DNA of 64,000 nucleotides from Cladocopium goreaui (taxonomy: Eukaryota > Sar > Dinophyceae > Suessiales > Symbiodiniaceae): contig CAMXCT020000248.1 in NCBI GenBank assembly GCA_947184155.2, positions 67,501 to 131,500 of the forward strand, written 5' to 3'. Positions within the stretch are counted from its first letter, which is position 1. Every line of letters begins with the position of its first letter. The translations under genes and the position numbers were made by a program. This document shows positions 5,377 through 51,595 of this stretch, piece after piece. Below the pieces are notes generated by a model. It was not told the DNA's origin, did no database searches, and worked only from the letters and a program-made list of their open reading frames with translations.

Positions 5377-7740
5377 ATGCAGTCTTCTCTTCGTCCGGTT
5401 GATAGTTTGAGCGATGAAGAGAACACGAATGACAATCCGGGGCCCCAGCCGAAGATTCGTTCTCCTCGTCCAAGGGCACCTGCCAGGGGTCGCCGAAAGG
5501 GCTCTTTTGCAAAGGTTCATTTTGGACGACATGACAGTCCTAAGCATCTAGCAAATCTCATCAGAGGGAGCTGTGGGTGCAAAGCTTTGTGTTTCTCAGC
5601 ATATCGCGAACATCAAATCCAAGAATGGCTGAAACTTCGGAAACAGCTTGGGGGCATGACAAAGCTGGAGAAAGATCAGTACGTCAGGGTGTCCCAGCCA
5701 ATGCAATCAAGCAAACTCATCAAAACCTTGAGTTTCAGAATCGATTACTCATGTATGATGGAGCCACCTAATCATGTAGCTACCAACTAAGGTCTTCAAG
5801 CTCTTGCAAATGCAAGACAGCTCACCATGCCCTGGTTCGAGGCACATCCGATTTCTTGGAAACCCGTTGTGCAACAGAGGGTTTATGAGGTTGATGGGGA
5901 TTGTTCGAAACAGATTTCGAAAGATGCATGTGGCAGCACAAAAAGGGCAAGAGCATTGCCCATACGATGGTCGCTTTGTGGTCAAAGGAAAACAAACGCC
6001 CAGCGACACCTGGGACCGAGTTCATATGTTTTTAACCCAGCTCTACATGGAAGCTGCAGAACCAATTCCAGATGGGTTGAATTCAAACAAACGTCCACGA
6101 CAAGGGTCCAAGAAAAGGGACAGTCCACATTTGGACCGTAGCAAGATGAAGCATTTGCCTTATGGAACAATCAGTGACTACTATCGTCAGTGTGTGGCTG
6201 CAAACCCTGGCCACAAGATCGGTCGAAAACTGTTTTGCTCAGACCCTCGATAAAAGTTAAGTCAACATTGCTTTTTTGATTTGGTAAAACGTGGTAAAAA
6301 CTTTGGACCTTGGCTTCATTCGTTCATTCGGGTTAAGGGTTCATGGGTTTCGTCATTCGAGGTTTGGCAATCCGACTTCGAGCACTTATTGCGGATCCGG
6401 TTCTACACTCATCATTCCAAGTGCTCTTTGTGTATCAAGCATCGTTTGATCATAAAGAAGCTGGGGCATTGCCCTCCAGCCAGGAGAGCTCAACATGCTA
6501 TGTTGCAGAAGCACCTTGACAGGCAGCACAAAGACCGCCAAGTGTACTATGCTGCTAGGGCTCGATCTCGGTTGGGGGCCACTACTTTGGGTGAGTGTGA
6601 AATCACTGCCATATTGGACTCCATGGATGCTCAAAAACATGCATGGCCCAGAAGTCGGTGTATGTCATCCAAAGAGTTTTCAAACTTTAACCGTCCGCGG
6701 TTAACGTCCACCACCTTGTTGGTGCACGGACATCTGGTTTTGGTGGCCCTTTCCCCCAGCCTCTTGACCACCGGCAGCAGCCGCACAGCAGAGATCATCT
6801 GTCATGGCCTCAGCAAGTTGGCGGATACCGTGGACTTCAGACTGGTATGGTTGAACCTTCAAGCTGATAATTGTAGCAAGGAGGTCAAAAATGTGGGTAC
6901 CCTTCGCCTTTTGGCAATGTGGACTGCTTTACACAAAATAGCAGGTGCTGAAGTCAATTTTTTGGCTAGCGGACACTCCCACGAAGACATCGACGCCCTA
7001 TTTGCCTTGCTACGTTGTCACATCGAACAACATCATGAGTTGTGGACACCATCGGCCTTCAAAGAATGTTTGCAAGGATTCTTCAATGATCCCCAAAATC
7101 GGCCATACGAACCTATGAGATCGGTTGAGCTCATGACCCGGTACAAAGATTGGATACTTTTCATTTGATGTAAGTAAACTATAAATCTTTTTTTGGTTGG
7201 ACCATGTTTGACCCACACAACCTGCAGTGTTTTCCACGGTTTTCCATGGCATGTTCATTCCCATCCTCAACCAGCTCAGGACAAATTGGCTTTCCCATCA
7301 TTTCGAACATGCTCGACTCACAGGTATTGGTGGGCCGGGGGCTCCGCATTCCATCCGTTTGGAACGCATCGGTTCCACAGGACAGTTCTATTTAATTGTT
7401 TTCATTTGCCCATGAAACGTGATGCTGATTTGGTTTGTGTTACATGATGTCCATTAGCACCCTGCCAGGACTCCAGCGAGACTCAATTGACTCATCATTT
7501 TGGGATCGACGAGAGTACATACCAAGTTCCTCCGATGTCATCATGAGGACCCATTGGTTTTAGTGTATCCGAATTCTTTCTTTTCAAATGAACATCCCAT
7601 AAGTTCCTTCCGTGCCTATTATGCCAGGACCAAACAATGGATGAGTGACGGAACTTGGCAGCCGACCACTTTCCTTTTCTTGCCAGCCTCTGTGGCTGCA
7701 AGGGCTCAAGGAGATTGTCCGCCAGGCCATGCACCACCGG
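5377..7740 (+). CDS. DUF7869-like protein, transposase-like, multi-exon
   Basis: Belongs by eye to the large eukaryotic family annotated as DUF7869, common in dinoflagellates. Exon 1 (5377-5682) starts at an ATG and reads MQSSLRPVDSLSDEE, a basic region, then GSCGCKALCFSAY. Exon 2 (5792-6241) holds FLGNPLCNRGF, VVKGKQTPSDTWDRVHMFL and GTISDYYRQCVAANPGHKI. Exon 3 (6362-7166) holds a Cys pair (CSLCIKHRL), DSMDAQKHAWPR (6616 on), LQADNCSKEVKN (6857-6892) and GHSHEDID (6970-6994). A later exon carries GIGGPGAPHSIRLER (about 7320-7365), and ARTKQWMSD.WQPTTFLFLP follows near 7620-7685. The spaced acidic residues resemble a DDE/RNase H-fold transposase core; that function is inference. Introns fit at 5683-5791 (GT-AG, 109 bp) and 6242-6361 (GA-AG, 120 bp). 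The exons are open and conserved in order, so the gene may be intact. The exact 3' end is uncertain. Confidence 0.72.
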
Positions 7741-21144: not shown

Positions 21145-21655
21145 AACTTTCGGATTCTTTGACCGAAATTTTCTTTCACAATTGTTGCCGTGGGGGCCAA
21201 AGAAAAAATGGGACAAGGTGGAAATCCACACCAACAGTCTTCCACTCCCTAACAGCGATCTGCCAAAACGACCATGAACACTTACCATATCAGACCCATG
21301 CCGACAATGGTACCTGGTCCTTTGATACTTCCAGTGAAGCAGCATATCCCGAATTGCTTACCCAGCGGGTGCCATCAGCCGTTCGGAAATTCCTGGAATC
21401 AAAAAACCTTTCTTTTCAGCCACTGCCGCTACCTAGAATTCACACTCTAGCTGTCCAACATCGGCAGCACAAGAAAAGAAGTCAACTTATTCCCGAATTT
21501 GCTGACATTCACTGGCTACCCGCCAATACAGTAATCCATGATTCCCAGAAAAAGTTCATGACGGAGGGGGTGCCTTTGGTTGGTTCTCACGATCACCCTT
21601 CGTGTTATCCTCTGAAACTTAAGGCCGCTTCCATGTCTGAAGAGGAACTGAGAGA
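21145..21655 (+). pseudogene. Conserved pre-RT region of the DIRS-like element
   Basis: One open segment reads CCRGGQRKNGTRWKSTPTVF, then CQNDHEHLPYQTHADNGTWS and FDTSSEAAYPELLTQRVPSA. The Cys-rich start and the FxTxxEAxYPxLLxQR pattern are constant neighbours of RT in this kind of dinoflagellate element; function unknown. The following SMSEEEL segment leads toward RT but a frame change lies near 21.7 kb. Confidence 0.5.
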
Positions 21656-21744
21656 CTCGGCGCTGTCTTGCCCTGGAGAAAAGGAGGCCTCAAACAGAAG
21701 CCCCGGGCTTTGCAGAACATCTCGAGGAGACAGCTGCAGAAGAG

Positions 21745-23210
21745 GTGAAACTGCAATTTCTCGAAGGGCCTTTCTCCTCTTCAGCAGAAGTGAGTGAAGC
21801 ATTGGGGCACCACCAGTGGAGGATAATGAGACGATTTGTGATTGAGCAAGGTTCAAAGTTGAGACCCATCCATGATGTGCTGGAGGCTCAACTTAATGCA
21901 GCCTACACATCAACAATTGGACTTGACCTCCAAGATGCAGATTACTTGGTGGCTTTGATGCTGGAGTTGGGCAAGACTGGAGACCTTTGCTGGGTCGGCA
22001 AGACCCTTGACTTGTCCAAAGCGTACAAACAACTTCCAATCTTGCCCGGCCATAGTGGCCATAGGGACCTGGCAGTCACTTTCTTCAGAGACAGGCATGG
22101 AAGGTCGAGATACTACATCCCTAACGCCTTGATGTTCGGATCTACTGCAGCAGTGTATGCCTTTAATAGGGTTAGTCGTTCCTTATGGTTCCTGCTCAAT
22201 GTGTATCTGAAAGTGCCGGCGGCAGTGTATGTCGATGACTATCCATTGTTTTCTCCAGTGTCGAGTGCGCATGAGACAGACATGCTGGTCTCCGATTTTC
22301 TTGACCTTTTGGGGTGGCGTCATGATAGGACGGGACCCAAGGGCAAACCCTTTGCCCCAGCCTTCGATGTCTTAGGCTTGACTCTGGATCTCGCAGGGTT
22401 GCGAAATGACAGATCTGCTATCTTGAGAAACAAAGAAGGGGGGGTCGAGAAGATCGCTTCCAAAATCGTCAAGGTCAAGGACTCAGGGGTCATGAGCCTT
22501 TCCGACGCTCAGGAGATACATGGCCTTTTGAACTTTGCAACCGGTTACTTTGCCGGTAGGTCTCTGAAGTATGCCTGCTTTAGAATCTTTTCCTTGGTAG
22601 ACAAAGGGGACCGCCACTTGCCCCAGCTGCAAAGCTGGTGTGATGAGGCCCTTCTCTTACTTGACAGCGTCCAGCTCCGGACGATCCCAGTGAGTATCAG
22701 TACCAGCACTGTTTTGGTGTTCACGGACGGTTCTTGGGAGAGTAACGTTGCAGGATTAGGAGCAGTACTGTTAAATGAGTCGACAGGGAACCGACTAGTT
22801 GTACAGGACCGAGTGCAAGATGGGCTACTTGACTTGTGGCGCGATCTGGTAGGAGACCAGCTCATATGCCAGATAGAGCTTTTTGCGATGGACCTAGTCA
22901 GATGGGAATGGTAACTGGAGTTGAGTAATAGGCGGGTGCTGCTGTTGAATGATAATAACTCAGCTAGAGGTGGAATCGTCAAAGGCCGATCAAACTTACA
23001 GCCCTACGATGGATGACCTCATCAAAGCCTTCTATTCGATTGAAGTCCATTTACCGTCCTTCTGGTGGGTAGAACGAGTCCCAAGTAAAAGTAATCCTGG
23101 TGATGAACCCTCTCGTTTCGAAGGAAGAGCCTCTGCAGCCCTTTGGAATGCACGATTCTTGCCAGGATTTAAATGCCAAGCCAAAGTGGCAGACTGGTTG
23201 ATCAAGACAG
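21745..23210 (+). pseudogene. Reverse transcriptase and RNase H of the DIRS-like element
   Basis: The frame open to 22914 reads RPIHDVLEAQLNAAY, TLDLSKAYKQLP (first catalytic Asp), NALMFGSTAAVYAFNR, YVDDYPLF (active-site Asp pair, about 22228-22251), then the RNase H start VLVFTDGSWESN..GLGAVL (about 22711-22767) and CQIELFAMDLVRWEW. A stop follows. RNase H continues in another frame as LLLNDNNSARGGIVKGRS (22938-22995), then in a third as WWVERVPSKSNPGDEPSR (about 23065-23115). Catalytic motifs survive, but the RNase H half has two frameshifts. No integrase or recombinase follows before the LINE. Confidence 0.75.
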
Positions 23211-23325: not shown

Positions 23326-26300
23326 TCAAGGTATGATTTGGAAGTCAGGCAGCCAGGTGTCGCGCTGTTGGGCTGAGCAAGCGTATGTTGCTCCCTGGAG
23401 CCACTGCGTCAAATCAACCGACAAAGGCTTGGTTAAGCAAAATGCTCGTTGACTCTCGCAACGCGCTAATTGCTGTATAATTGCAAAAGCAAGCCCTTTA
23501 CAAAATTGTTGCGGATATTCCTTATGTTGGGCTGTTCGGTAAACTCCATTCTCGTCCCTGCCGATAGCTACAGCCTTAGGCCGCTGTGCTTGCATGTCCG
23601 CTTGGGTGTATAAATCTCTGCAAAAATGAGGCATTTGGTAGTGGAGCAAGCCGGTCGGCTTCACCACAGTTGCACCCCATAAGTACTGAGAAACATGGGC
23701 CAGGCGCACATCAGGGTGTTGCTGTAAGACTTCCAAGAGGGAGCTAGTCCACACACTCGGGCGGCTAGAGTCATGCGGTTTGGCCGGGTGCTCTGAAACA
23801 AAGCAGCCCCCAAAAGCCATATGAAAGCCTAAAGTCCAAGCAGCCTGTTGAAAAAAATTACCTCCAACATGACACTGCTGGAGTTCCCTGACCGACAAAC
23901 CTTCCAGGCCTAGCAGACATTCAGCTGATCGTAGGGGACGCGGGCCAGGACGATTGGTTTCCGCCGCATCAGCCACATGAAACCGGGCTTCGCTGAAAGT
24001 TTCACAAGGCGATCCAACCAAGGTAGCCGCGACAACACCAGCTTCGTAAAGCCGTATGATAGCTTTCCAAGAGGTGGAACCCAGTGCTAAATTCCCAAAT
24101 TCAAGCGAAACAGCAGTATCGACTGATAGAACAAGGACAGAAATCCCTCGCGTGCCAGCAAGCTCATGAAGGTGTGCGTGGACATCTCCTTGGCGTCGCC
24201 TACCACTGAATAAATGGAGTACCAGATACACTTCCCGACCATCTGCCATCAATAGTTTGGGTGTGGGCTTCTCCTGTGGCAAATCCAAAAATGACATACT
24301 TCTGATCTGCCTCAGCCAGACAGCTTGTCCAGCAAAAGCACGCATGACAGCTTGTTGTGTGCGGCTGCAGATCTTGGGATGCTTGAGGGGTTCACCTTCC
24401 TGGCGCCTAGGCCGATGTGGCGCAAGAGGGGCAGGCGCACATGCGCGCAAACCGGCTTCAAGGTGTGCCACCTGTGCCAGAAGTCGGTACCTTTCCAGTT
24501 GTGAAGCAAATTCCGCAAAAATCTCCTCCACATCGTACTCAGCGACGCCGTCTTCAAAGGTGCTAATGATATCAGGAAACCAATGTTCCCCCCACAACAG
24601 GAAAACAGGCTCAAGCCAAGGGTCAAGATTGGACTCAAATGCATCAGGGCAAGCATACAGAGCATCAATCCAAGCATCTGTGAGTTCATGTTTTTCTTCG
24701 GCTGTGGGCCCCTGCGGGTAATAAGCACGAAACCAGCGTAATGTAGCACATTCCAGTGCTTCCCCCAAACGTTCCCCAGTAAGCAATTCATCATCTGGCA
24801 CAAATGGGATCCGCAATTTCTCATGGCACACAGCGAGTTCAGCATGCAAATTTGCCTTACGGCGATCATCCAATGTCAATGGACACACTGGCGGCCCTTC
24901 CACCTGAAGCGCATCTCTTCTGGACAAACCCGCAAAATTAGCGTCGGCCCCAACATCCTCCCTTGCATATTCAATTACCCTCCCTTGTGCAGTGAGTGCA
25001 GCAAAGCAAGGATTATATCCCAAACGCTTTGGAATGTAAGCCAGATGCTGTTGCAAACGTTGGGTGGACCAAAGGAACTTGCCGCAGTGCAGGCATGTGC
25101 ATCCCTGAAGGAAGGGCCTTTCTAAGGAGAAAATTCGATGTGCTTTCCGCTGGTGTGCCAATAAGCCACGCCTAGTAGCAAATGCACGTCCACAAAAACA
25201 CGATTCCGTCTCCTCAAGGAGCCCAAGGTGCTCAGTAGCATGCTCAAATGTGGCGCCAGCCATTCTCAATGTGCGGAAAACTGCCCCATGAAGCTTCTTG
25301 GCATCAGACATAATGGCATTTTGTATAAGGTGAATCTTCAGGCTTCGCTTCACCATGTTGACCCACTGACTGCGTGGGTCTTGCCAAAGGTCGAACAATG
25401 GGGTCAGGTTATCCTTCCAACCATCGGGTAAACAACCTGGGCAAACTTCCTCCATCCAAACAAGATCCGCTCTCAAGCCATGCATCCATGATCCTTCAAC
25501 ACAAGCAAATTCACAATGGAGCAGATCATGCAGAAAAGCCGGACCCGTACGAAAGAGTCTCTGTGCGTACAAGAGGCGTTCGACTGCAAGTTTAACACGC
25601 ACTTCTGGGGTATTTGCAAGCATCAACAACTGATCAGCCGGCAGCTGCAGGTGACAAACACGCAGCACACGCTTCAGCAAAGCCACAAAGGCTCCCTGCA
25701 GATATTGCAATTGCTTCGGTGTTGGGGTTGGCCAAGAGCCCAGGCCGAAGAGCATCTTAGTCACCACAAGCGAATGGAAGAACTGCAGTCGCAATTTTGT
25801 TGGCAAGTTCTTATTCGTCAAGATAGGTTTCGCAAGCTGTGCAAAAGCTGATTTGGCCATGCCTACTCTAGTGCGGAGTTCACAGGTAAGGTCATGGCTG
25901 GATGTGAACTGGGTGCCTAAATGGCGATAAGCAGAAGTGAAGTGCAACCATTCAGTGCGCCCATCCTCAAAGGTACACAGGACCCCAGGCCGGGAATGCA
26001 ACAAATACTTCTTCCTCAAAGCGCTAGCACCCTGGCCCCGCAGAGTCAGGACGGCACTAGTCTTGCCCTTGGCAAAATTCAAGGAAAAGCCATAGTTGCT
26101 GAGTGTCGTTCGAACCTGCTCAAGGGTCCTTTGCAAAAGAGGGATCACATCATCTGCTGCTTGAGTAGCTAAAGGGACTGCAATGTCATCTGCCCAAACC
26201 ACTGTAGGCACCTCAATGTTGATATCGGAAAGGAGGCGAGCAAACTCGTCCTGCGCACCAAGCCACTGATCAACAGCAGAAGCGACCTTGGCCATCAAAG

Positions 26301-29300
26301 CATGAAAAATAATATCTGCTAAGGGGCTGCCTGGGCGCGTCCCTCTATGCGTACGCAAGAGCCATTGGTCATGCAAAGTGCACCACGTGCCAAGGTGGAT
26401 GTCACGCAACAGCCTCACAATAGGAGCAGCAACTCCCATATCGGCCAAAATACCTGGGAGTTGGGCAAAGGAGCGAAATTTATCCTCTGGAAGCCCATTC
26501 TTGACCAATACTCGCATGACATGCTCAAGATTGGCTCCGTCATTCGATCCTACCACAGCTTCACGGATAAGGTGGTGAAAGGCGCTGGAAAGGTCCAGAA
26601 ATAGAATTGCACTATTGAGGCCTTTGCTGTCACAAATCATGCCAAATGTCCGAAGTGCGTGGGAACCATAAAGCACTTGCTGCCCAGAAAAACCCCCGAG
26701 CTGGCCGGGTGAACGGGCAGGGGCCAATGATTTCATGATACGACTCCGCAAAATGGCATGCATACGTTTACCCACATTAGGTAATAACAAAATGCCACGA
26801 AATTGGCTGGCAGTAGTAGGATGCAGAGTCTTGGGCAGAATGGCAACTGGGCCTCCTTTAGCTTGGATTGGTTCGCACTGCCACAGAAATGCTTTCACAA
26901 TCAAGTCATGGTGCAACTCCGCAAGTTTTGCAGAGGCTTGGTGGAACAGGGCAGATGGAAGCGGGTCATAGCCAGAAGCCTTATCGGCCGGCACGGAGCG
27001 AAAGGCACTTTCAAGCTGGGAGAGGCTAGGCAAATCTTGCAAATCCAGGTGCAAAGGAGCGTCGAGCCTTCGCAAGGCTTGTTGAAAGGCACATGCATCA
27101 ACAATTGCATCAGGAGTAATGGCAACTCCTGCTTCAAGATTTTCATAATGGGGTAGCCACTGGTCCTCCAATGCTTCAAGTTGAAAAGGTGCAATATTCA
27201 TGCGTTTCTGGCGGTGTTTGGGCAATGACCGCCGCACAATCCCCCACAGCTGCTTAACGGCACTCGGATGCAAAAACTCAGTGCAGTCAGCCATCAAAGA
27301 GGTATAGAACTGAATATCATCCGCCCGCATAGCTTTGGCAACTTGTACCCCCAGACAACGAAACTGACTATAGCAAACAGCGATAAGACAGTCTTGTTGC
27401 CGAAGCAGGTCATCAAATGCAACATGGACTTCGGTGGGTGGACAATCACACATCGCATGCTTCCAACAGGAAAACCAAGCTTGTAACAATGTGAGCCTCT
27501 GGACTCGAGAATGTTCATGAAGACGGTTGCGACAAGAGCGCTTTTCTTGCACTAGCTGCCATGTCCATTCAGTCATGGTCACCTTCTTAGGCTTGGAGAC
27601 TCGTTGGGATTGACAGGACCATAACTTATCAACAAGAGAATCCTGCAAAGCCGCAGCATGTGAGTGCACATCAATTGTCCAAACCGGTTGCTCAATATTT
27701 TGCAGAATGGCAGGGTCAATGGCATCAAATGTCAGCTTAGTCATGCCAGCTTTTTTGGTATGACCAAAGGGTCGCATAGAACAGGTGAGATGAACCACAG
27801 CTGCTCTGTGGTCTTCCTTCATGAGTCCAACATCGATATCCTCGCTGATCCAAGACCTGCAATATGAAAGCTGCCATTCAGCATTCCTGTACCATTGTCC
27901 ACGTGAATGGCGCCAGGTGGCGCCAAGACCAACATGGGTGGCTTCGAAAGTGGCAGGGATCCACAAACCATGCCTTGCAAGAAAGTCCAAAAACCCTTCA
28001 GCCTTTGGATCGAGGGCTTCAGCTTGATGATCACCAACCTGAGCGTTAGGCTCCGCTCCAACTCGGGCATTGGCATCAGCGAGCAGGACGGTATGCCATT
28101 GATGGTACTTAGTGGGAATGGCATCAGTGACAGACTGCCACCATGCTTGGATGGTGGTTGATTCGGCGCCTGTGTGTGGGGCATGCCCAGCAACAAGAAT
28201 ACATTTCAAAAGAGGATTTTTGATGCGCAGGATGAGAAGCCGTGGCGAATTGAAAATAATGGCAACTTCTCGATCCTTGACAAACACCTTTTCCTTCCTT
28301 CCATTCGAAATGATGTAACCGATAGGCAATTTCCTGTGCAGGCCAATAAAGACACCATAGTGCCCTTGTGCATTGGCCGGGCTACGGAAAATCCAATAGT
28401 TGGCATCATGCCACTGGGACTTCTGACGATGCCGCGTTTCTTGCCACGCCCAAACATGAATCCCAGCCTCATGGAATTGCGTGAGCAATGCATCCTGTCG
28501 GGAAGGTCCCTGGTTGAGAGACTCGGCCAAATTCTGATGCACAGCTTGGGCAGGCTTAAGGGAAAGCACATTACATGTAGCGAACTGGATATCAAGCCAA
28601 CCCTGTTGCTCAGTCGTTGGGGATACCTCACAAGTTAATTGTGGAGGGAACACTGACACATCCGGGACTGTACTAGGACCGGCAGGGAAAACAATGCGTG
28701 ATCCATCCCAATGCAGGTCCCTTCGGAATAGGTACCAGGTCCATTCAGCAAGATTGACAAATTCAGCTCGGGTAACATGCTGGATCCAAGGCTGGAGATC
28801 ATGCAGAGGGTAGCCATATGCTGCCTGGAAAGCAAGGCAGTCCACCAATTCATTGCCCGGCTCGCCCACATGCGCTTTGATGTGGCGATGCTGCAATGTA
28901 ATGCCAAATTTATATTCCAGGCATCGGTGCAAGCTTCTCAGGAATTGGCCCATACGTGGTTGTGACCAGATCTGCCACGTACCCTCTGCTTGCTGGCCGA
29001 CTGTCTGCGAGTCGTACCTGAACTCAACCTTAGGCAGATTGGTTTGTGAGCAAAGCATGAGTTTGAGCAAATCATAGGCAAATTTGTGGGCTAAAATGGC
29101 TGCTGCAAGCTCGGCCACATAAGATGTGGCTGTGGAGTCAAGCCTGGTGGAAACTGCCCCCGCAAAATACCAGGTATGCGAGACCTTGGCAAAGGCAGCA
29201 ACGGCACAGCCTGCAGATTTGTCTCCATCACTCTTGATGCAAGATCCATCATAATAGATCAAAAGTTCCTGACACGGCGTACCCGGGGTCCACCACGGGG

Positions 29301-32300
29301 CTTGCACCCAACTTAAGCTGGCAGGGTGCCATGGAAAGTGATCAGGCAGATCATACACTGGCAGGATGAAATGCGCATCCAACTCCTCGAAAACATGAAT
29401 AACCCCAGAAAAGTCAACCTCAAGCGGTATGTCAGCAATCAAACGTCCTTGCCAGGTCATCTGAACGAAAGAACCATTAGAGCATTGCGCGCCAACACGT
29501 CCATCAATTAAGATGGTGCAACATTGCAATTGTCGCAGACTGGCTTGGTCAAAATTAACCCCAAAGACAAGTCCAACATCCTTGCGACAAAGTGGGTTGG
29601 GTAGCAGGGCTGCACGAGTTTCAGACAAGGCCTTATCCACACCAACTCCGCAGGCTTCAATCAGAAGTGCCATCCTGTCAGATGATGCAGAAGCTTGAAC
29701 ACCAAGAAAGTGCAGTTCGGCTGTGTCCGGGTGCTGTATGGTAAGCACCTCTAACGGCAAATCATCAGCAACATCAAACCAAACTCCTCGTAACACATCA
29801 GGAAGTGGCAGATCTTCGTCAATGCAGACCGATCTGGGTTTGAAACAATGCAACTGTACCCTCTCATGCAGAAACCATGTCTTAACTTCTCTGGGTCTCT
29901 TCACAGGTTGGACACGGCTAGCACGCATCTGAAGGAAATTCAGCGCTTCTGTGCCTGGCAACTCAGGACGAATTGGCGGTTGCCAGTCAGCAGGAAGCAC
30001 AATGCGGGCAACTTGCATGACAAGACAGCTACCATCACGTACTGCGATATGACTACCGGGCTGTACAGGCATTCTCTCCATCCACAGTGCACAGTTAGTA
30101 CCAGGGCATTGACAGTCATTTGAGTACCCTAATGCTGCAATAACATCAGCGGCAGTGGTTCGCTCGTTCAAGGTGAAAACTGCTCTAAAGGGCAATCCAT
30201 GGTTGATCGCCGAATCATAGATCGTGATAAGTGGCGACGATCCAGTGGGCAGTTCATGCTGTATCAACACGACGTGAGCACTGACTGAAGACTCTATATG
30301 GGGCGGTGCAGGATGCACTACCACAAATGAAATAGGAGCGGAGAGATCAATGTACTCTCTCCATGGCGCTTTCAACCTTTCTTCCCATTGCATAAAATCT
30401 TGAAAAAGAACCACCCTACGGCTTTGTAGACAGCTCAATCGTCCAATGCCCGGTGCCACAAACCAAGTGAGGACATGTGCAGCACGCGATTCCTCCTCCC
30501 ACGCAAATGCACAATTCTCCCAACAAGCAAAAAGATCTTGCAAATGCTCAGGCTGGGCATGGATCGAGTCTTGTCCTGGCTGAAACACAGCAGCATCCGG
30601 ATTAAATCGGAAGGCAGATCTCTGCATCAAAGCCAGATCTTCGAAGTGTTGCCTAACTTCTCTGGCTTCTTCATCAGCAAGATCATGTGCAGCAACACGC
30701 AGGTAGAGGCTGGAGCCAGTCACCACATCAATCCAATCAGGGCCGGGCACAGCACGTCCCTGTGAAAAGAGTGTACATTGATTACTTGCACAATAGTGTG
30801 CCGCATCCATTGCTCGTATCACATCGGCCATATTGGTACGAGTACTGATGGAAAAGGCACCTTGGATCATGCCATCACGTGCCGACCCTTCAATGAGGGT
30901 GGTCAGGACAACCGCTGCACTCTGTTCATTGGGTGCCTGTTCAAGCAGGATATGACAAGCACTACGGAAAGACCGGAATTGTGGCGGCCTGGGACGAACA
31001 ATAAACACCGAAAACGGTAAACTGACATCGAGTAAGTCACTCCAGGCATGGCGTAGTGCATCAATCCATGTAATAGGGTTGCTGGCAAGATTGACATACC
31101 TAGGTCGGTGACAGGTTGGTCTCCTGGTGTGGTGAACATACCAAACTGTCACCTGTATGGTAAGTTCATCATCCCAAGCATTGTAGTCAGTTGCATTCTG
31201 GAACAATGGAGCCAGCTCATCAATCCACTGATCGCTACCATCATGGTATGGCCTGGGAGGTCTGCGGACGTGCTGGTCCAAAAAGGTCATAGGAAATTCA
31301 TCTCTTTGCACGTTGTTTCCAGGTTTACACTGACGCGGCTGTGGGTGGTGGAAGGTTGCATTGCGCTGAAAGAGACTGAAGGCATCCGCAACCTGATCCG
31401 AATAAATGTCAAGCTCAGCACCTGAGACGAGCACCAAAAGAGAGGTTCCTAATCGGAGGATAAGACTCTCATCAGGGAAATAAGTCTGTCCAGCCATCTG
31501 GATGATAGTAGGCCGGTGTGAATGTTCATGAGGGACTGCCAATCGTAGGATGTCCCTTCCAGTCGTACGGCTAAGGAGAACATGTGTGAACTGTCGCATA
31601 GGCATCGCCAACCCATCAGTTCCTTGAACTGTGATAAGCACAGCAAATTGGTCATTAGGAAGATCCTGTGTAACCAAAACATGTGGGCACTGACCTCCCG
31701 TGAGTCTCGAATGCACCAATGTGGAGATAACTTCAATCTCAGCTGCACTTCCTCTAATGAGTCTATCTCGCCAAGGAAAAATAAAATCCGTCCTCCACAT
31801 ACCTGGATCATTTGTGATACGCACAATGCGGGGGGCATCACAATGGAAATCCACATTCAGATTGAGATACCACACAGCCACATTCATGAAAGTTGTCTCC
31901 TCAATTAAATCAAATTCATGATGATATTGAAAGTGCCGGTCAAGGACTTGCAGCCAAGCAGGCCGAGCATCGGCCTGGAGTGTTGCATTAGACAAAACAA
32001 GGTCAGGCAATGTGCCTCCGCCGCCTGCATGCGCACTCAAAAAGGCGGGCTCCGGTGGTCGATCAAAAACCTCACCATGAATGGCTCTCTGCAACACACT
32101 TCGAATCTGTGAATTGTCCATCAGCAGTAATTGAGGGAGGTTAATCGCTACACCTCTGCTAATCACAAGCCTAAACGCATTACCATCTTGCACATTCACT
32201 TCATGCAAACGGCCAATAGGAATAGTACCAAACCAGAGATTGCAAATATTGCGGAAATTGGCTGGTGGGCAATCAGGCTGCATGTGCAGGAATGTGACAA

Positions 32301-34944
32301 GTCTTTGTAGGTTAAGACGTCGAGGCAAGGCCAAAGCAAAGGTAAATGGATTCCTTTCAGCGTCTTCCTCTGAGTCATACACAGACAAAATGGCAGATCG
32401 GAATTCGGCTCTAGCACCTTCAGTAATGGTAAGCTGAGCGATTGTACCTGCCGCACTGTCCTCAGGCTCCGGGGAAACCAAAGCAAAATTCAGAGCATTG
32501 CTATCAACTACTCGATCATGCCATGTCGCAACCAGCTGTGATCGCCAACGAGTGAAGTCAGCGGACAGCAAAGTGATACGTGAGGCATGGCACTTGTTGT
32601 ATGTTGTATGGTGCAGAAACCAGCTCTCAATTCTGAAAAATTCAGGTGCCTGTGGGATGCTCACATCCATCTGTGTGGAAATCCGGTCCCAAATTTCACG
32701 AAATGCTGTCGGCTGGGCATCAATCGCAAAAGGGTCCAGGGGAGCAGGTTCCTGTTGGTCAGCTTGCCTAGCCGCATCAACTGCCTGCAGAAATTCATCA
32801 GTGAAGCTATCACAAGGCATCTCAGAACCAAAGTGGGCGTCATTTTTGCTGATATATCCAGGGCCATCGGCCCTCGTCTGCAGCAGGCTCTCATCATCCC
32901 CCAAACTGTCGCCGTGATCCGACTCAGTACAAGGTTTGATTTGCACCGTGAGACCCCGTCCAGACCATGTACGGAAAGATTGCTCGGGGCTCAGCAGTGC
33001 GGGATTTTCCCAGACAATTGGATTACGGCTAAAGGAAGAGAAGAGTGGCACCGCAAAAAGGACGTCTCTCTGAGTGCAAAGTTTCGGAAGCACTACTGCA
33101 ACTCGCACCATGACACTGGGTTCAATACGGTCAGAAAATTCCATAGAAAATAATGCCGAAGATTTCCCAGAGTGTCGCTGCGTAATGATAACATGTGCCA
33201 AGTGTTCTTCAATGGGAACTCGTGGGGGGTTAGGCTGGACAAGGTCAATAAAAGTTGATTCGCCAAGCTCCAACCAAAAACGCCAAGGTTGCAGGATGTC
33301 TTCTCTCCATTCCCCAACATCCCCTCCCAGAGTGACTATCTTAGGTTCTCTACAGATGCAATGTTTGTCGTGATCTAAGAACCACGTTAGAATGGTGAAG
33401 CTGAAATCAATGTCTCTGTCAGCATCACAGCTGCGTGCAAACTGACCAGCGATGCGTTGCAAATCAATGATCCAATCATCTGGTAATTCTTCATCAGAAC
33501 TCAATACTTCAGCTTCTTGCTGCCGCGAAGCTACAGCACTGGTCTGCATGGCTTGAAAGGCATCATGGTCGTGTTCAGATTGGGCATCTGTGTCATTTCT
33601 GGGTACAGCAAGAGCCCTGACTTCATCCTCGTTCAAAAGGCTGGGTGAATATCCGTCCTCCACCTCATGCTCAGAAATGCGGCTAACAATCTCATCATCT
33701 GAAAGCAAATCTTGGGTCCAGCGTGCAATCTGGGTTGTAGGACATGCGTATCTTTCAGATGGTGGAATGGCAACCCGAATCAAATCACCATGACTCAGCT
33801 GACGTTGTAGCAGGTCAGTGTCCTGCCATCTCTCATTATTGTGCCAAACAAAGCATTTGTCATTCTCCCTGGCGCAATATCTGTCAACGTCAGCAATGAC
33901 CAAAATGGTAGCTCGATCGCAATGCAGCGGAGCTGCCAGCACAAAACGCTGTGTTGTGGGGCCTGCACGAAAACCTACTTCGATAGCATGTGCATGGATT
34001 TCCAAATCAAAGAGCACCAATCTAGCAAGTTGCCCGACTGCAATATCAGGAAAAAGATGCACAATGACAGGAATAGAGTCAGGTGGAAGGCCCTTAACTT
34101 CAGCATTGATTTCGTAGACATCAACCACATCCACAACAGTGGTGGCATAATGATGTGCAACTTCACTGATCATATTTTCATAGCTACTCCAGTCAAGAAA
34201 GACACGCAAAGGTAGGTCCCCAACATGAAACATGATGACGTCTTGTCGTGTGTCATCAAGACTAGGCGGGCCAATGCGAGAATCAGAAGAAGATCTGGAC
34301 GATTCTAATTCAGATTCCCAATTCTCTCTATCATCGTCGTCATTATGGTCAGTAAAGACATTGGGAACAGTGCGGCCCTCTCCAAACGTCTCGACCAAAT
34401 CAACGTCATGATCTGAATGTATAGCTTGCTTGAAATGCAAGTTTTGCACAAATGAAATAGTATCAGATTGACTTTCATCAACAGGTAAGGATTTGCAATC
34501 TCGGCTCAACAAACTCGCACAAGAGGATGGCTCCGGAGGTTGCATCACTTCAGAAAATCGTGGAAACGTGTCAAAACCTGTCAAATACGGATTTTGCTTT
34601 CGAATTCGTTTTCTGCTCCATGGTTTAGTGGGCCAGTTATGCAAAGCAATCTGTGCCACTTGGATCTTCCCCATCGCAATTTCCTCATCATCGCCCAAGA
34701 AAATATCAATCTGATCATCAAACCTAACATGTTTCGTATGAACATCAGAGGAATGTGGTCTCTGAGATAGAATCGAGGTCGAGGGACTGCTTGCACAATA
34801 GGGTGACTTGATAGCAGGTAATTGAGGAAGTCGAGCAAGATGGTCAAAGCCCACTTCCCACTGCAAACTCAAAGCGTTCAAACATGCTTGGAAAGGACTC
34901 ACATAGAAAGGTTCGTACTGGATGGAATGCGTCCATGGTAGCAT
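23326..34944 (-). CDS. LINE ORF2: giant polyprotein, six modules, RNase H, endonuclease, RT, zinc fingers, methyltransferase-like
   Basis: About 3,872 residues from the first Met after the ORF1 stop; the frame is open further upstream, so the true start is uncertain. Order: an acidic N-terminal region; six tandem modules (about residues 510-1860); RNase H (29290-28790, YYDGS, VAELAAA, RYDSQ, HVGEPGNELVD); AP-endonuclease (28610-27780, CNVLSL, WQETRH, LADANAR, EDHRAA); RT (27010-25950, DKASGYDPLPSALF, FLDLSSAFHHL, GTRPGSPLADIIF, WADDIAVPL); two Cys/His fingers (25205-25045); and a C-terminal domain with LHLFSGRRRQGD and GSPCETFSEARF (24235-23990). RNase H upstream of the endonuclease is unusual; in LINEs that have one it normally follows RT. 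Endonuclease and RT catalytic residues are present. It nicks target DNA and copies its RNA. Stop TGA at 23328-23326. Confidence 0.85.
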   Translation of the reverse strand: MLPWTHSIQYEPFYVSPFQACLNALSLQWEVGFDHLARLPQLPAIKSPYCASSPSTSILSQRPHSSDVHTKHVRFDDQIDIFLGDDEEIAMGKIQVAQIALHNWPTKPWSRKRIRKQNPYLTGFDTFPRFSEVMQPPEPSSCASLLSRDCKSLPVDESQSDTISFVQNLHFKQAIHSDHDVDLVETFGEGRTVPNVFTDHNDDDDRENWESELESSRSSSDSRIGPPSLDDTRQDVIMFHVGDLPLRVFLDWSSYENMISEVAHHYATTVVDVVDVYEINAEVKGLPPDSIPVIVHLFPDIAVGQLARLVLFDLEIHAHAIEVGFRAGPTTQRFVLAAPLHCDRATILVIADVDRYCARENDKCFVWHNNERWQDTDLLQRQLSHGDLIRVAIPPSERYACPTTQIARWTQDLLSDDEIVSRISEHEVEDGYSPSLLNEDEVRALAVPRNDTDAQSEHDHDAFQAMQTSAVASRQQEAEVLSSDEELPDDWIIDLQRIAGQFARSCDADRDIDFSFTILTWFLDHDKHCICREPKIVTLGGDVGEWREDILQPWRFWLELGESTFIDLVQPNPPRVPIEEHLAHVIITQRHSGKSSALFSMEFSDRIEPSVMVRVAVVLPKLCTQRDVLFAVPLFSSFSRNPIVWENPALLSPEQSFRTWSGRGLTVQIKPCTESDHGDSLGDDESLLQTRADGPGYISKNDAHFGSEMPCDSFTDEFLQAVDAARQADQQEPAPLDPFAIDAQPTAFREIWDRISTQMDVSIPQAPEFFRIESWFLHHTTYNKCHASRITLLSADFTRWRSQLVATWHDRVVDSNALNFALVSPEPEDSAAGTIAQLTITEGARAEFRSAILSVYDSEEDAERNPFTFALALPRRLNLQRLVTFLHMQPDCPPANFRNICNLWFGTIPIGRLHEVNVQDGNAFRLVISRGVAINLPQLLLMDNSQIRSVLQRAIHGEVFDRPPEPAFLSAHAGGGGTLPDLVLSNATLQADARPAWLQVLDRHFQYHHEFDLIEETTFMNVAVWYLNLNVDFHCDAPRIVRITNDPGMWRTDFIFPWRDRLIRGSAAEIEVISTLVHSRLTGGQCPHVLVTQDLPNDQFAVLITVQGTDGLAMPMRQFTHVLLSRTTGRDILRLAVPHEHSHRPTIIQMAGQTYFPDESLILRLGTSLLVLVSGAELDIYSDQVADAFSLFQRNATFHHPQPRQCKPGNNVQRDEFPMTFLDQHVRRPPRPYHDGSDQWIDELAPLFQNATDYNAWDDELTIQVTVWYVHHTRRPTCHRPRYVNLASNPITWIDALRHAWSDLLDVSLPFSVFIVRPRPPQFRSFRSACHILLEQAPNEQSAAVVLTTLIEGSARDGMIQGAFSISTRTNMADVIRAMDAAHYCASNQCTLFSQGRAVPGPDWIDVVTGSSLYLRVAAHDLADEEAREVRQHFEDLALMQRSAFRFNPDAAVFQPGQDSIHAQPEHLQDLFACWENCAFAWEEESRAAHVLTWFVAPGIGRLSCLQSRRVVLFQDFMQWEERLKAPWREYIDLSAPISFVVVHPAPPHIESSVSAHVVLIQHELPTGSSPLITIYDSAINHGLPFRAVFTLNERTTAADVIAALGYSNDCQCPGTNCALWMERMPVQPGSHIAVRDGSCLVMQVARIVLPADWQPPIRPELPGTEALNFLQMRASRVQPVKRPREVKTWFLHERVQLHCFKPRSVCIDEDLPLPDVLRGVWFDVADDLPLEVLTIQHPDTAELHFLGVQASASSDRMALLIEACGVGVDKALSETRAALLPNPLCRKDVGLVFGVNFDQASLRQLQCCTILIDGRVGAQCSNGSFVQMTWQGRLIADIPLEVDFSGVIHVFEELDAHFILPVYDLPDHFPWHPASLSWVQAPWWTPGTPCQELLIYYDGSCIKSDGDKSAGCAVAAFAKVSHTWYFAGAVSTRLDSTATSYVAELAAAILAHKFAYDLLKLMLCSQTNLPKVEFRYDSQTVGQQAEGTWQIWSQPRMGQFLRSLHRCLEYKFGITLQHRHIKAHVGEPGNELVDCLAFQAAYGYPLHDLQPWIQHVTRAEFVNLAEWTWYLFRRDLHWDGSRIVFPAGPSTVPDVSVFPPQLTCEVSPTTEQQGWLDIQFATCNVLSLKPAQAVHQNLAESLNQGPSRQDALLTQFHEAGIHVWAWQETRHRQKSQWHDANYWIFRSPANAQGHYGVFIGLHRKLPIGYIISNGRKEKVFVKDREVAIIFNSPRLLILRIKNPLLKCILVAGHAPHTGAESTTIQAWWQSVTDAIPTKYHQWHTVLLADANARVGAEPNAQVGDHQAEALDPKAEGFLDFLARHGLWIPATFEATHVGLGATWRHSRGQWYRNAEWQLSYCRSWISEDIDVGLMKEDHRAAVVHLTCSMRPFGHTKKAGMTKLTFDAIDPAILQNIEQPVWTIDVHSHAAALQDSLVDKLWSCQSQRVSKPKKVTMTEWTWQLVQEKRSCRNRLHEHSRVQRLTLLQAWFSCWKHAMCDCPPTEVHVAFDDLLRQQDCLIAVCYSQFRCLGVQVAKAMRADDIQFYTSLMADCTEFLHPSAVKQLWGIVRRSLPKHRQKRMNIAPFQLEALEDQWLPHYENLEAGVAITPDAIVDACAFQQALRRLDAPLHLDLQDLPSLSQLESAFRSVPADKASGYDPLPSALFHQASAKLAELHHDLIVKAFLWQCEPIQAKGGPVAILPKTLHPTTASQFRGILLLPNVGKRMHAILRSRIMKSLAPARSPGQLGGFSGQQVLYGSHALRTFGMICDSKGLNSAILFLDLSSAFHHLIREAVVGSNDGANLEHVMRVLVKNGLPEDKFRSFAQLPGILADMGVAAPIVRLLRDIHLGTWCTLHDQWLLRTHRGTRPGSPLADIIFHALMAKVASAVDQWLGAQDEFARLLSDINIEVPTVVWADDIAVPLATQAADDVIPLLQRTLEQVRTTLSNYGFSLNFAKGKTSAVLTLRGQGASALRKKYLLHSRPGVLCTFEDGRTEWLHFTSAYRHLGTQFTSSHDLTCELRTRVGMAKSAFAQLAKPILTNKNLPTKLRLQFFHSLVVTKMLFGLGSWPTPTPKQLQYLQGAFVALLKRVLRVCHLQLPADQLLMLANTPEVRVKLAVERLLYAQRLFRTGPAFLHDLLHCEFACVEGSWMHGLRADLVWMEEVCPGCLPDGWKDNLTPLFDLWQDPRSQWVNMVKRSLKIHLIQNAIMSDAKKLHGAVFRTLRMAGATFEHATEHLGLLEETESCFCGRAFATRRGLLAHQRKAHRIFSLERPFLQGCTCLHCGKFLWSTQRLQQHLAYIPKRLGYNPCFAALTAQGRVIEYAREDVGADANFAGLSRRDALQVEGPPVCPLTLDDRRKANLHAELAVCHEKLRIPFVPDDELLTGERLGEALECATLRWFRAYYPQGPTAEEKHELTDAWIDALYACPDAFESNLDPWLEPVFLLWGEHWFPDIISTFEDGVAEYDVEEIFAEFASQLERYRLLAQVAHLEAGLRACAPAPLAPHRPRRQEGEPLKHPKICSRTQQAVMRAFAGQAVWLRQIRSMSFLDLPQEKPTPKLLMADGREVYLVLHLFSGRRRQGDVHAHLHELAGTRGISVLVLSVDTAVSLEFGNLALGSTSWKAIIRLYEAGVVAATLVGSPCETFSEARFHVADAAETNRPGPRPLRSAECLLGLEGLSVRELQQCHVGGNFFQQAAWTLGFHMAFGGCFVSEHPAKPHDSSRPSVWTSSLLEVLQQHPDVRLAHVSQYLWGATVVKPTGLLHYQMPHFCRDLYTQADMQAQRPKAVAIGRDENGVYRTAQHKEYPQQFCKGLAFAIIQQLARCESQRAFCLTKPLSVDLTQWLQGATYACSAQQRDTWLPDFQIIP
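29400..33420 (-). repeat. Six tandem protein modules within LINE ORF2
   Basis: Six copies of one module begin near 33415, 32650, 31890, 31173, 30497 and 29900, so units are about 200-255 residues. Each opens with a pattern like TWFLHH......C..PR.V.L, then a Trp-centred W...L...W.D segment. A hydrophobic stretch with PxPP and an H.V(L/I)xQ motif follows in the better copies. The first and last copies diverge most. A half-unit seems to precede the first (about 34080-33780). The copies differ strongly at DNA level, so the duplication is old and the reading frames have been kept. I recognise no named family. Confidence 0.7.
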
Positions 34945-35093
34945 CGGATCAAAAAAGGGGTCCCAACGACCGCATGCTGCACCAGACAATAACTCTATTG
35001 GCTGATAGGCCTCAACGATCGAAGCATCATTGGACTCATAGAAGCTGGCCACATGCACAGAATTCCTTTGAACTTCTGAAGCACGGCCTGAGA

Positions 35094-36215
35094 TCACGGA
35101 TTCCTGGATGCACCACCAGCAAAGGGCTCTAAAGCACGAGGCCTTTTGGATCGTTTGTCCTCGTCTGCAGTGTCGTCTTCCTGGATGTCGGTGGCCTTCT
35201 GGTCCAACTCCAATCCCAGGGAGCCCGCACAGCTTTGGAGCACTCCTTGGAGCTGCTTCCTTAGGACCTCCTCCTCTTTGTCGGCAGGATCTTCCGGAAT
35301 CTCTTCTGCTTCCACTTGAACAGAAGACGGAGGCAAGGTAGGACCTCCAGCTGTAGCGTTGCTCAGCTGTTGAATGATTCTGTTCGTTGCAGTGATCTCG
35401 GTCCTTGCCTTTCCTGCATGTTCCGTGAGTGTCGCCTGATGTCTTCGGAAGTCGTCCAGTTGTTTTTCCCACATCTTGATTCCATTGGACAAATGGGCCA
35501 TCCAAAGGGAGCGGTGGGCACGTCTTTGGTCTGTGACTTCCTGCAGGTGCTTCTTCACCTTGCCCAAGTACTTCGTAGCTTGGTGCAAGTTCTTGATCCC
35601 CATTCTTCCCGTCTCCTGTTCGGTTTTCTCGATAAAAAGCTTGGTATCTTCTGGCATTTTGGCTGGGTCGGGATATGCCTTGCGCAAGTGCTCTACCATC
35701 TCTTGCTTTTCGCTGGATGTGCTTGCTGGCATCAAGGAGGAAAATGGGCTCGAGGGCAAAGCTGTGGTGGGCATGAATTGGGCTGTGTCCATCGGTGTCC
35801 AGGGCGCAAAATTGTCTCCCTGTTGAAAAGGAGAAGTCGATTCTGTTCCTCCATGACTCGGAGGCATTCCTGGCGACACGCCCTTCTTCCCTTTCCCTTT
35901 CCCTCCTTTCCCTTTCTTGCCCTTCAGAATAGGCTTCTGGTGACTGTGCTGGGCTGTGGCACCTCCATCTTGGCGATATCTTGTAGATGACCGACTCGAT
36001 GAGCGGCTTGATGCCCAATTTGAGTCTTCGTCCCAGTTGTCCCAGTCCTGCCAGCCATATGTCTCCTTCTGTTTGGGTCGAGTTGGATGTCGAGTGCCCT
36101 TCTTCCAAGAGCCCCAACAAATCGCACACTCGACTGCGTACTTCTTGTTGATCCTCCCACAGGGGCATTTCCAAGGGAAGTATGTCTCGTTCGGATCTTC
36201 CTCGTCCATGTTCAT
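35094..36215 (-). CDS. LINE ORF1: RanBP2-type zinc-finger protein
   Basis: About 373 residues from the first of two close ATGs (36215 and 36209; the second begins MDEEDPNETYFPWKC). A RanBP2-like finger (WKCPCGRINKK..CAICWGSW) lies at about residues 14-37. It is followed by a Trp/Asp segment (GWQDWDNWDEDSNW), a Ser/Arg run, a Lys/Gly-rich stretch (KGKKGKGGKGKGKKG) and a long helical, probably coiled-coil region (about residues 170-290). The C-terminus is acidic, then DKRSKRPRALEPFAG. The likely role is RNA binding and RNP assembly, by position and composition. The frame is open further upstream to 36485, but the finger sits right after these ATGs and the upstream part looks non-coding. ORF2 lies in the frame reached by a -1 shift. 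Confidence 0.72.
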   Translation of the reverse strand: MNMDEEDPNETYFPWKCPCGRINKKYAVECAICWGSWKKGTRHPTRPKQKETYGWQDWDNWDEDSNWASSRSSSRSSTRYRQDGGATAQHSHQKPILKGKKGKGGKGKGKKGVSPGMPPSHGGTESTSPFQQGDNFAPWTPMDTAQFMPTTALPSSPFSSLMPASTSSEKQEMVEHLRKAYPDPAKMPEDTKLFIEKTEQETGRMGIKNLHQATKYLGKVKKHLQEVTDQRRAHRSLWMAHLSNGIKMWEKQLDDFRRHQATLTEHAGKARTEITATNRIIQQLSNATAGGPTLPPSSVQVEAEEIPEDPADKEEEVLRKQLQGVLQSCAGSLGLELDQKATDIQEDDTADEDKRSKRPRALEPFAGGASRNP

Positions 36216-36600
36216 TGCTTGACTGATTTTTGAAATAAATAAAGCGTCTCGGCTGTGATGTGTACTCAAAATATGCCTGATCTTTCTCAAGGCAGCTTTG
36301 GTGAGCGAAACCCAGCCGTGTTTGTGCAAAAACCAGTTGCGCCTTGCCTTGGCCCTCTCTCTCCGTGCCTTCCGGCGAACAGTAGTTTTGAGTTGCGTAA
36401 TCCTTAATAAATGTAAAAAGGACCGTGAATCCCAAAAAGATGTGGAGGAAGCTGCACATACAAGAGATGTGGACCAAATCGGCACAAACCCCCGATGATA
36501 CGCTCACCGGCAGAAGCGAGAAAAAGCTGATGCGCCAAGAGGAAATGCCAGGGCAAACCAATACGGCAAATACCAGGTTAGTACAGCAGCTAAATCAGTG

Positions 36601-49931: not shown

Positions 49932-50957
49932 AGGAACTGATCAGCTGAATGACCTCCGGAGACAAATCAACGAGCTGCGGGATTTCTTGGAGGTGCACTT
50001 GTCTCGTCACACAGAACTTCTGGAGAGTTTGCAAGAACCTCACGGAGGAGAGTCTATGGGGCAGATAGAGGCTGAGTTGCCGCCTGAGCCTGAGTTGGCT
50101 GAAGGTGAAGGTGAGGTTAAACAGCCTCCCCAAGAACACCAAGAGACAGACAAGAGGACTTCTTTTGCCGATCGACAGGCAATGTTGTGGAGTGGCTCTG
50201 TCGTTGGAAGAAGTTCGCTGGTTTCAGCAAGTATTTTCCATTTTAAAGCCAGGGCACACATGCAATCACTCAAACTACGTGCTAGTAAGCGCAATCCGGC
50301 TCAGAGTTCTCAAGAATTCGGCTGGCAGTCACTTGTCCGAGATTTGGTGTTCTCCTCGCTCTTTTCAGCCATCATCACTGTGCTGATTCTCGTGAACGTA
50401 ATTTTACTTGGTGTAGAGGTTGACCTTTACGCATCGCTGGATGTTAACCAGGAGGTACCAAGCTGGTATGGGACAGCAAATGCCATCATTGTGGGCATTT
50501 TTGTTCTGGAGATCGGCTTGAAAATCTTTGCGCTGGGATGCCGTGATTTTTGGCGTGGCAGAGATTCTGCTTGGAATGTGCTGGATTTCACGATCGTTTT
50601 TATTTCAGTCCTTGATGTGGTGCTGCAGTTGCTGTCTTCCACCTTGGACACCGGGATCGCCAGCCTGGTGAGGGCCATCCGGATCGCCCGCGCAGTTCGG
50701 GGCATCCGACTCATTCGAATCTTCCGATACATTACAGCTCTCAGAACCCTGGCGCTATCCATTATCAGCACGTTGGGTTCTTTGTTTTGGACAATGGCTT
50801 TGTTCATGCTCATGTTTTATTTCTTTGCCATTGTCTTAACTCAGCTTGTGGCCGACAACTGTCGATTCTTGAAAATGGATGGAGATAGCCTGGGCACTGG
50901 GCCTCTGTGCCGAGAGATCTTGCCAAAATATTGGGCATCAGTGCCTGAGAGCAGCTG
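49932..50957 (+). CDS. Voltage-gated cation channel exon (S1-S5), partial gene
   Basis: One long exon codes for the first part of an ion-transport domain. It starts after an AG acceptor near 49931 with a coiled-coil segment (DQLNDLRRQINELRDFLE) and an acidic linker. S1 is VFSSLFSAIITVLILVNVIL. S2 is TANAIIVGIFVLEIGLKIFA. S3 is WNVLDFTIVFISVLDVVLQL. S4 (RAIRIARAVRGIRLIRIFR) has Arg at every third position, which marks a voltage sensor. S5 is TMALFMLMFYFFAIVLTQL. It ends at about YWASVPESS, just before a GT donor (50958); the pore loop and S6 are not found in the window. The product would sit in a membrane and pass Na+ or Ca2+. Selectivity cannot be told because the pore is absent. The downstream intron holds simple repeats and perhaps LINE2. 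The open frame running on to 51597 is repeat sequence, not protein. Confidence 0.82.
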
Positions 50958-51059
50958 GTATTTAAGACCTATGGTGCTGTTTTTTTGTTGTATTTTCCCG
51001 AGAGCATCTAAGCGAAGGGTTCTTCTAATAGTGGGGGTCTGTTATACTATACATCTTCA

Positions 51060-51313
51060 CATCTTCCTCTTCACATCTACACAGATCATCTTCACATCTT
51101 CACATCTTCACATCCTCACATCTTCACATCTTCACATCCTCACATCTGCACGTCTTCACACATCTTCTCTCTCTCTCTCTGTCTCTCTCTTTCTCTCTTC
51201 TTCACATCTTCACATCTTCACACCTTCACATCTTCACATCTTCACATCTTCACACCTTCACATCTTCACATCTTCTCTCTCTCTCCTTCTCTCTCTCCTT
51301 CTCTCTCTCTCTC

Positions 51314-51381
<68 letters not shown>

Positions 51382-51391
51382 GCTGGCTGGC

Positions 51392-51426
<35 letters not shown>

Positions 51427-51595
51427 GCCTCTTTCTCTCTCTCTCTCCCTCTCCCTCTCTCTCTCTCTCGCACTCTCTTGCCCACTCCCTGTCTCTCTCT
51501 CTCTCTCTCTCCCTTTCTCTCTCTCTCTCTCTTGCCTTCTTGCCCTCTGTCACGGTCTCTCTCGGTCTCTCTCCTTCTTTTTCTTTTCTCTCTTT
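51060..51595. repeat. Pyrimidine-rich microsatellites (CACATCTT, CT, CTGT, CTGC)
   Basis: Tandem TTCACATC words (51060-51270) are followed by CT runs, (CTGT)n, (CTGC)n at about 51345-51380, (CTGT)n again, and CT runs to 51590. All frames read Leu/Ser/Cys- or Arg/Glu/Gln-rich peptides; these are not genes. Confidence 0.93.

Follow-up and report, generated by a model that had tools for sequence, protein, structure and literature searches.

A length-variable array of predicted beta-grasp modules in ORF2 of a dinoflagellate LINE

The window analysed here is a stretch of 64,000 nucleotides from Cladocopium goreaui (contig CAMXCT020000248.1, positions 67,501 to 131,500). Its minus strand carries a two-ORF (open reading frame) element of the non-LTR (long terminal repeat) retrotransposon or LINE (long interspersed nuclear element) type, identified from its sequence by a reverse transcriptase (RT; PF00078) in the last ORF. 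ORF2 of LINEs usually encodes an endonuclease (EN) and an RT with short extras. ORF2 of this element holds six tandem copies of a protein module (M1–M6), preceded by a half-copy (M0). Comparison with relatives showed that this array is a maintained, position-specific and length-variable part of the element. Each module was predicted to consist of two beta-grasp domains.

The six segments M1–M6 were cut from ORF2 and compared pairwise by phmmer. All ten pairs among M1–M5 were below 1e-4, the best being M4-M5 (8e-19). M6 was weak by this method, with a best value of 9e-6 against M4. The chance level was taken from 50 rounds of shuffling of all seven segments, whose two lowest E values were 7.8e-5 and 0.0031. 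With 3.7e-5 and 8.8e-5, M3-M5 therefore lies at the edge of the chance level and M6 by itself is not decisive, while the other nine M1–M5 pairs are far beyond it. An iterated hidden Markov model (HMM) of 154 positions over the homologues settles that the tandem repeats are real and number six. It matched all six modules in ORF2 with E values of 1e-17 to 3e-47, and M0 was the sole further match in ORF2 at E≤0.01. The cores lie on the minus strand at 32938-33393 (M1, residues 1068-1219, HMM E 2e-43), 32161-32631 (M2, residues 1322-1478, 5e-46), 31426-31881 (M3, residues 1572-1723, 8e-38), 30694-31152 (M4, residues 1815-1967, 3e-47), 30010-30474 (M5, residues 2041-2195, 1e-46) and 29497-29886 (M6, residues 2237-2366, 1e-17). 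M6 is the most diverged of the six. The linkers between cores are approximately 40–100 residues long. A first-pass annotation of the window had described six tandem copies and a possible half-copy at 29400-34080, strongly diverged but reading in a single frame within the ORF2 of a LINE, and had proposed a module alignment and HMM as a check. This description was borne out: the similarity between modules is significant, the frame is single and without a stop, and the cores, from 29497 to 34023 with the second half of M0 included, fall inside that extent.

The second half of M0 (residues 858-943, 33766-34023, minus strand) is certainly a copy of the second half of the module, judging from its sequence match to the module (hhalign probability 97.6%, E 3.3e-12; HMM E 8e-13). 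The stretch preceding it, to about 34248 on the minus strand, may be a diverged first half. On its own this stretch reached an hhalign probability of 1.9% (E 0.026, over 26 columns), and M0 as a seventh full module was rejected on this value. A joint alignment of 14 M0 rows with both halves gave 96.6% over 148 columns. This score is carried by the second half, since the per-column confidence was 0–3 through the greater part of columns 1–50 and the first half alone scored so low. A decayed first half of M0 is possible because in several relatives the M0 match of the HMM extends back to position 39–51 of the 154, into the end of the first domain. In seven of them (P0004, P0006, P0017, P0024, P0025, P0026, and P0029) it begins at 39–43, inside that domain.

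At least 29 relatives were found. The array as query gave 18, a search with the module alignment added one, and a search from the most distant match added ten (11 rows, one of which was the query). The count is a lower bound because scoring in the two long searches was confined to the best candidates, roughly 8,000 sharing most words. Three relatives come from EukProt. Module matches were present in 28 of the 29; the exception, P0027, starts at RNase H. Many of these proteins are incomplete at their ends, and the module counts refer to the visible part. Among the elements showing both M0 and RNase H (ORF2 and eight relatives), the number of modules between them ranged from one to six: six in ORF2, five in P0004 and P0009, four in P0002, three in P0015 and P0016, two in P0017 and P0025, and one in P0028. 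P0007 is cut before M0 and has six modules, and P0018, P0020, P0021, and P0022 start with the apparent last strand of M0, followed by two modules. A full module also stands ahead of M0 in P0016 (256-412), P0017 (190-348), P0024 (548-703), and P0028 (754-894); the HMM detected none at this place in the window copy. When the module alignment was used to look for short proteins with a module, within a reach of about 110–340 aa, one match was obtained, P0019, which is an array fragment; host proteins with the module are possible. No second copy of the LINE was found within the window. Pattern scans of viral and prokaryote contigs matched 5, 4, 40, 66, 1, and 0 stretches, none of which was confirmed as a relative. 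A phage origin was rejected, as tblastn against phage records gave no match at E 1e-5.

The first phylogenetic tree covered ORF2 and the full set of 18 first homologues, with 74 modules (73 complete modules and ORF2 M6). The rows were grouped by position, not by element. The clades were M1 (10 rows, support 100/100), M2 (13, 98/99), M3 (13, 100/100), M4 (13, 97/99), M5 (13, 98/96), and M6 (5, 94/96), and the leftover rows (P0015-P0018) were on long branches or apart. The second tree contained 56 rows from 16 chosen proteins and included two-module elements. M1, M3, and M4 were again strong clades, and M2 (100/99) had P0029 beside it at 97/90. M5 reached 88/96 without P0015-P0017, which fell elsewhere, so the M5 grouping of distant elements is unstable. 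ORF2 M6 and the other M6 rows may be falsely joined by their long branches. Because the grouping follows position and not element, most duplications overall predate the divergence of these elements.

The identity between ORF2 and at most twelve of the 18 relatives found first was measured part by part, with A and B denoting the first and second domain of a module. The values were 38–74% for M1A, 24–65% for M1B, 48–82% for M2A, 53–72% for M2B, 34–52% for M3A, 34–64% for M3B, 49–60% for M4A, 39–51% for M4B, 32–60% for M5A, 29–59% for M5B, 21–31% for M6, and 30–66% for the linkers. The enzymes showed 51–58% (RNase H, 4 rows), 46–48% (EN, 3 rows), and 55% (RT, 1 row). Over all M1–M5 halves the identity was 24–82% with a median of 49%, and 80 of the 94 values were within 35–70%. 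In the four relatives that span modules and enzymes, the modules averaged 43–45%, lower than RNase H and RT and slightly lower than EN. Within the window, 1,565 codon pairs among M1–M5 matched at 0.358, 0.466, and 0.295 for codon positions 1–3, against a composition expectation of 0.256, 0.257, and 0.266. Position 2 being the most matched is expected if the protein sequence has been retained and synonymous sites are close to saturation. Because relatives retain the modules in varying numbers, the array has the look of a working part that is maintained. The first-pass annotation had suggested that the modules are used; the retention of each position in relatives and the codon-position counts support this, and its suggestions on their role remain guesses.

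AlphaFold was used to predict the structure of M5 (pLDDT, the predicted local confidence, 91). In this model the module comprises two beta-grasp domains, A followed by a ubiquitin-like B. The B domain agreed with the ubiquitin fold, and the assignment of A as a beta-grasp domain is less sure. The six full modules would thus give 12 predicted domains, in addition to that of M0. An internal duplication giving A and B was dropped, as the sequences gave it no support. The best Foldseek matches were tandem ubiquitin-likes (ISG15, FAT10, the UBL domains of USP7, and linear ubiquitin), with 7–12% sequence identity and low whole-chain TM (template modelling) scores. These proteins, like the array, have ubiquitin-fold domains in a row. 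The array differs from them in having no Gly-Gly end, in its six pairs and a half per chain, and in its place within a retrotransposon. The best viral structural matches (BFVD) were Pandoravirus proteins named BTB/POZ and ubiquitin (E 5.8e-4 and 7.3e-4), whose likeness to the module is structural only (TM 0.27–0.31). No credible Pfam match was found for the module: among 23 module rows, seven families were each hit by a single row (best E 0.044) and none of these families has a ubiquitin-like name, in a search that can miss distant members. A PDB profile search gave no ubiquitin-like match, and PDB sequence searches gave nothing useful. The module had been called unnamed in the first pass, which holds for Pfam families and does not hold for its predicted fold, which is of a known type. 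Gly-Gly was found near none of 108 module ends. The most conserved residues (M5 numbering, of 91 rows) were W7 (89), W33 (87), W41 (88), and G151 (90), all of which look structural; Arg22 and two Cys are also conserved.

From the absence of Gly-Gly ends and the structural look of the conserved residues, we infer that the array is most likely a non-conjugating, multivalent protein-docking scaffold, a reading in which we place about even confidence. The array precedes RNase H, EN, and RT on one LINE polyprotein. Its ubiquitin-like folds would remain in the chain, neither conjugated nor cut off, and each position would present its own surface to a partner. The partners may be proteins of the ubiquitin pathway or chromatin of the host, or the ORF1 protein of the element itself. 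Docking would gather the ribonucleoprotein particle and bring it to its target. The tandem layout also resembles linear ubiquitin, ISG15, and FAT10, which could suggest a polyubiquitin-like precursor whose modules are cut apart and then conjugated or act as free ubiquitin mimics. Processing of this kind was rejected for want of Gly-Gly, and the long linkers between cores also argue against such a precursor, which we consider extremely improbable. Protein docking suits the predicted fold better than RNA binding does. Ubiquitin-likes mostly bind proteins, and the best fold matches of the module are of this type. An array binding nucleic acid, which would hold the LINE RNA or the target DNA, is therefore unlikely, even though a LINE must bind its own RNA and the conserved Trp, Arg22, and two Cys might serve this purpose; the Lys-rich stretch of ORF1 and the C2H2 finger of ORF2 are already present in the element.

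A somewhat less unlikely alternative, which we nevertheless doubt, is Gag-like self-assembly, in which modules bind each other or the ORF1 protein and build a particle, with the module number setting its size or valency. Beta-grasp folds can pair edge to edge, and elements with one to six modules past M0 have not lost the domains behind them. The orthologous positions, however, stay distinct and have not been homogenised, and this fits a variety of partners better than a single contact made over and over. Variable copy number, a weakly conserved M6, and M1–M5 less conserved than the enzymes could also be explained by passive repeat expansion without present function. This is very improbable given the identity at which M1–M5 halves are kept across elements, an ORF2 without a stop, and codon position 2 as the most conserved. 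Returning to the docking scaffold, we tentatively speculate that a LINE lineage captured a ubiquitin-fold pair and multiplied it to as many as six and a half pairs, every one then specialised and kept, for handling host ubiquitin-pathway or chromatin proteins. This is a possibility that we hold with low confidence. If true, it would be a retrotransposon counterpart of viral ubiquitin mimicry.

The minus-strand open frame at 23326-36594 has 4,422 aa from stop to stop. ORF2 proper (23326-35097, minus strand) comprises residues 500–4422, that is, 3,923 aa without an internal stop. Its putative start was set at the GTG of residue 500 because this codon overlaps the ORF1 stop TGA as GTGA (35094-35097, minus strand) and the Met of P0005, P0009, P0011, and P0014 is at the equivalent place. 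The overlap and these Met starts hint at termination-reinitiation. ORF1 (35094-36503, minus strand) has 469 aa from stop to stop in a frame different from that of ORF2. It showed no Pfam family at E≤0.1; a Cys-rich CPCG...C..C segment and a Lys/Gly-rich stretch were seen by eye. The order in ORF2 is N-terminal region, M0, six modules, RNase H, endonuclease-like domain, RT, C2H2 finger, and C-terminal domain.

All enzyme domains are on the minus strand. RNase H (28804-29286) matched PF00075 above the cut-off (E 1.7e-7), and its candidate catalytic D-E-D-D residues are kept in an alignment judged by eye. RT (26059-26811, residues 3262-3512) matched PF00078 (E 1.8e-7, 31.5 bits, cut-off 29.6). 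The APE-type endonuclease-like domain (27832-28584) itself matched no Pfam endonuclease family at E≤1 and was assigned by alignment with P0018 and P0022, whose PF03372 matches are below the cut-off (E 0.003 and 0.014). At about 27883 it lacks 6 residues at the place of an R-x-D motif present in all eight aligned relatives, so the window copy may be unable to cut. RNase H is upstream of the endonuclease-like domain (27832-29286 for both), and P0016, P0018, P0020, and P0022 have the same order. APE-type LINEs of the I group likewise encode RNase H, EN, and RT within a single ORF2, whereas their RNase H comes after RT; RNase H ahead of EN is, against this general background, an unusual order. The C2H2-type zinc finger (25138-25200) matched PF13894 below the cut-off (E 0.0015), and the region is kept in P0013 and P0020. 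The C-terminal domain (23425-24264, about 280 aa) is kept in P0020 and gave no credible match in Pfam, NCBIfam, or PDB sequence searches. It contains FSG, GSPCETFS, and KEYP stretches, which by eye we take to recall C5 cytosine methyltransferases, and a DNMT-like domain at the end of ORF2 is possible.

The first-pass annotation knew of no LINE with such an array. In the open PMC literature, judged by titles and the starts of abstracts, we found no LINE with a ubiquitin-fold array either. The closest described dinoflagellate LINEs among those found, from the passages available, are SymbioLINE-Dnmt, two-ORF elements in which selection has retained an extra domain, a cytosine methyltransferase in ORF1 (de Mendoza et al. 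2018, PMC5890265). By description, they resemble the window element as two-ORF dinoflagellate LINEs with RT in ORF2 and an extra domain. The added domain is DNMT in ORF1 in SymbioLINE-Dnmt and a module array in ORF2 here; Pfam gave no DNMT in ORF1 of the window element. The passages of PMC5890265 consulted mention no repeat array, and its Fig. 1 legend names RNase H, endonuclease, and RT without wording on which element holds each.

Other matches on the plus strand of the window were Ion_trans at 49933-51594 (E 7.6e-21), a piece of a channel gene, DUF7869 at 6254-7165 (E 8.5e-16), and RVT_1 at 57772-59007 (E 8.8e-10) and 21652-22911 (E 1.9e-4, weak and below the cut-off); the neighbours include other retroelement pieces. 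Two long satellite arrays, one of 54-base units (61133-62298) and the other with units of about 40 bases (62296-63711), underlie several long open frames at that end. The window scan matched neither an Rfam family nor a spliced leader.

In this family, one to six predicted beta-grasp pairs follow a conserved half-module, and most positions are kept over deep divergence. For annotators, this means that some long unnamed metagenome proteins belong to this element family. The elements offer a natural series of array lengths for asking what the array does for the retrotransposon.
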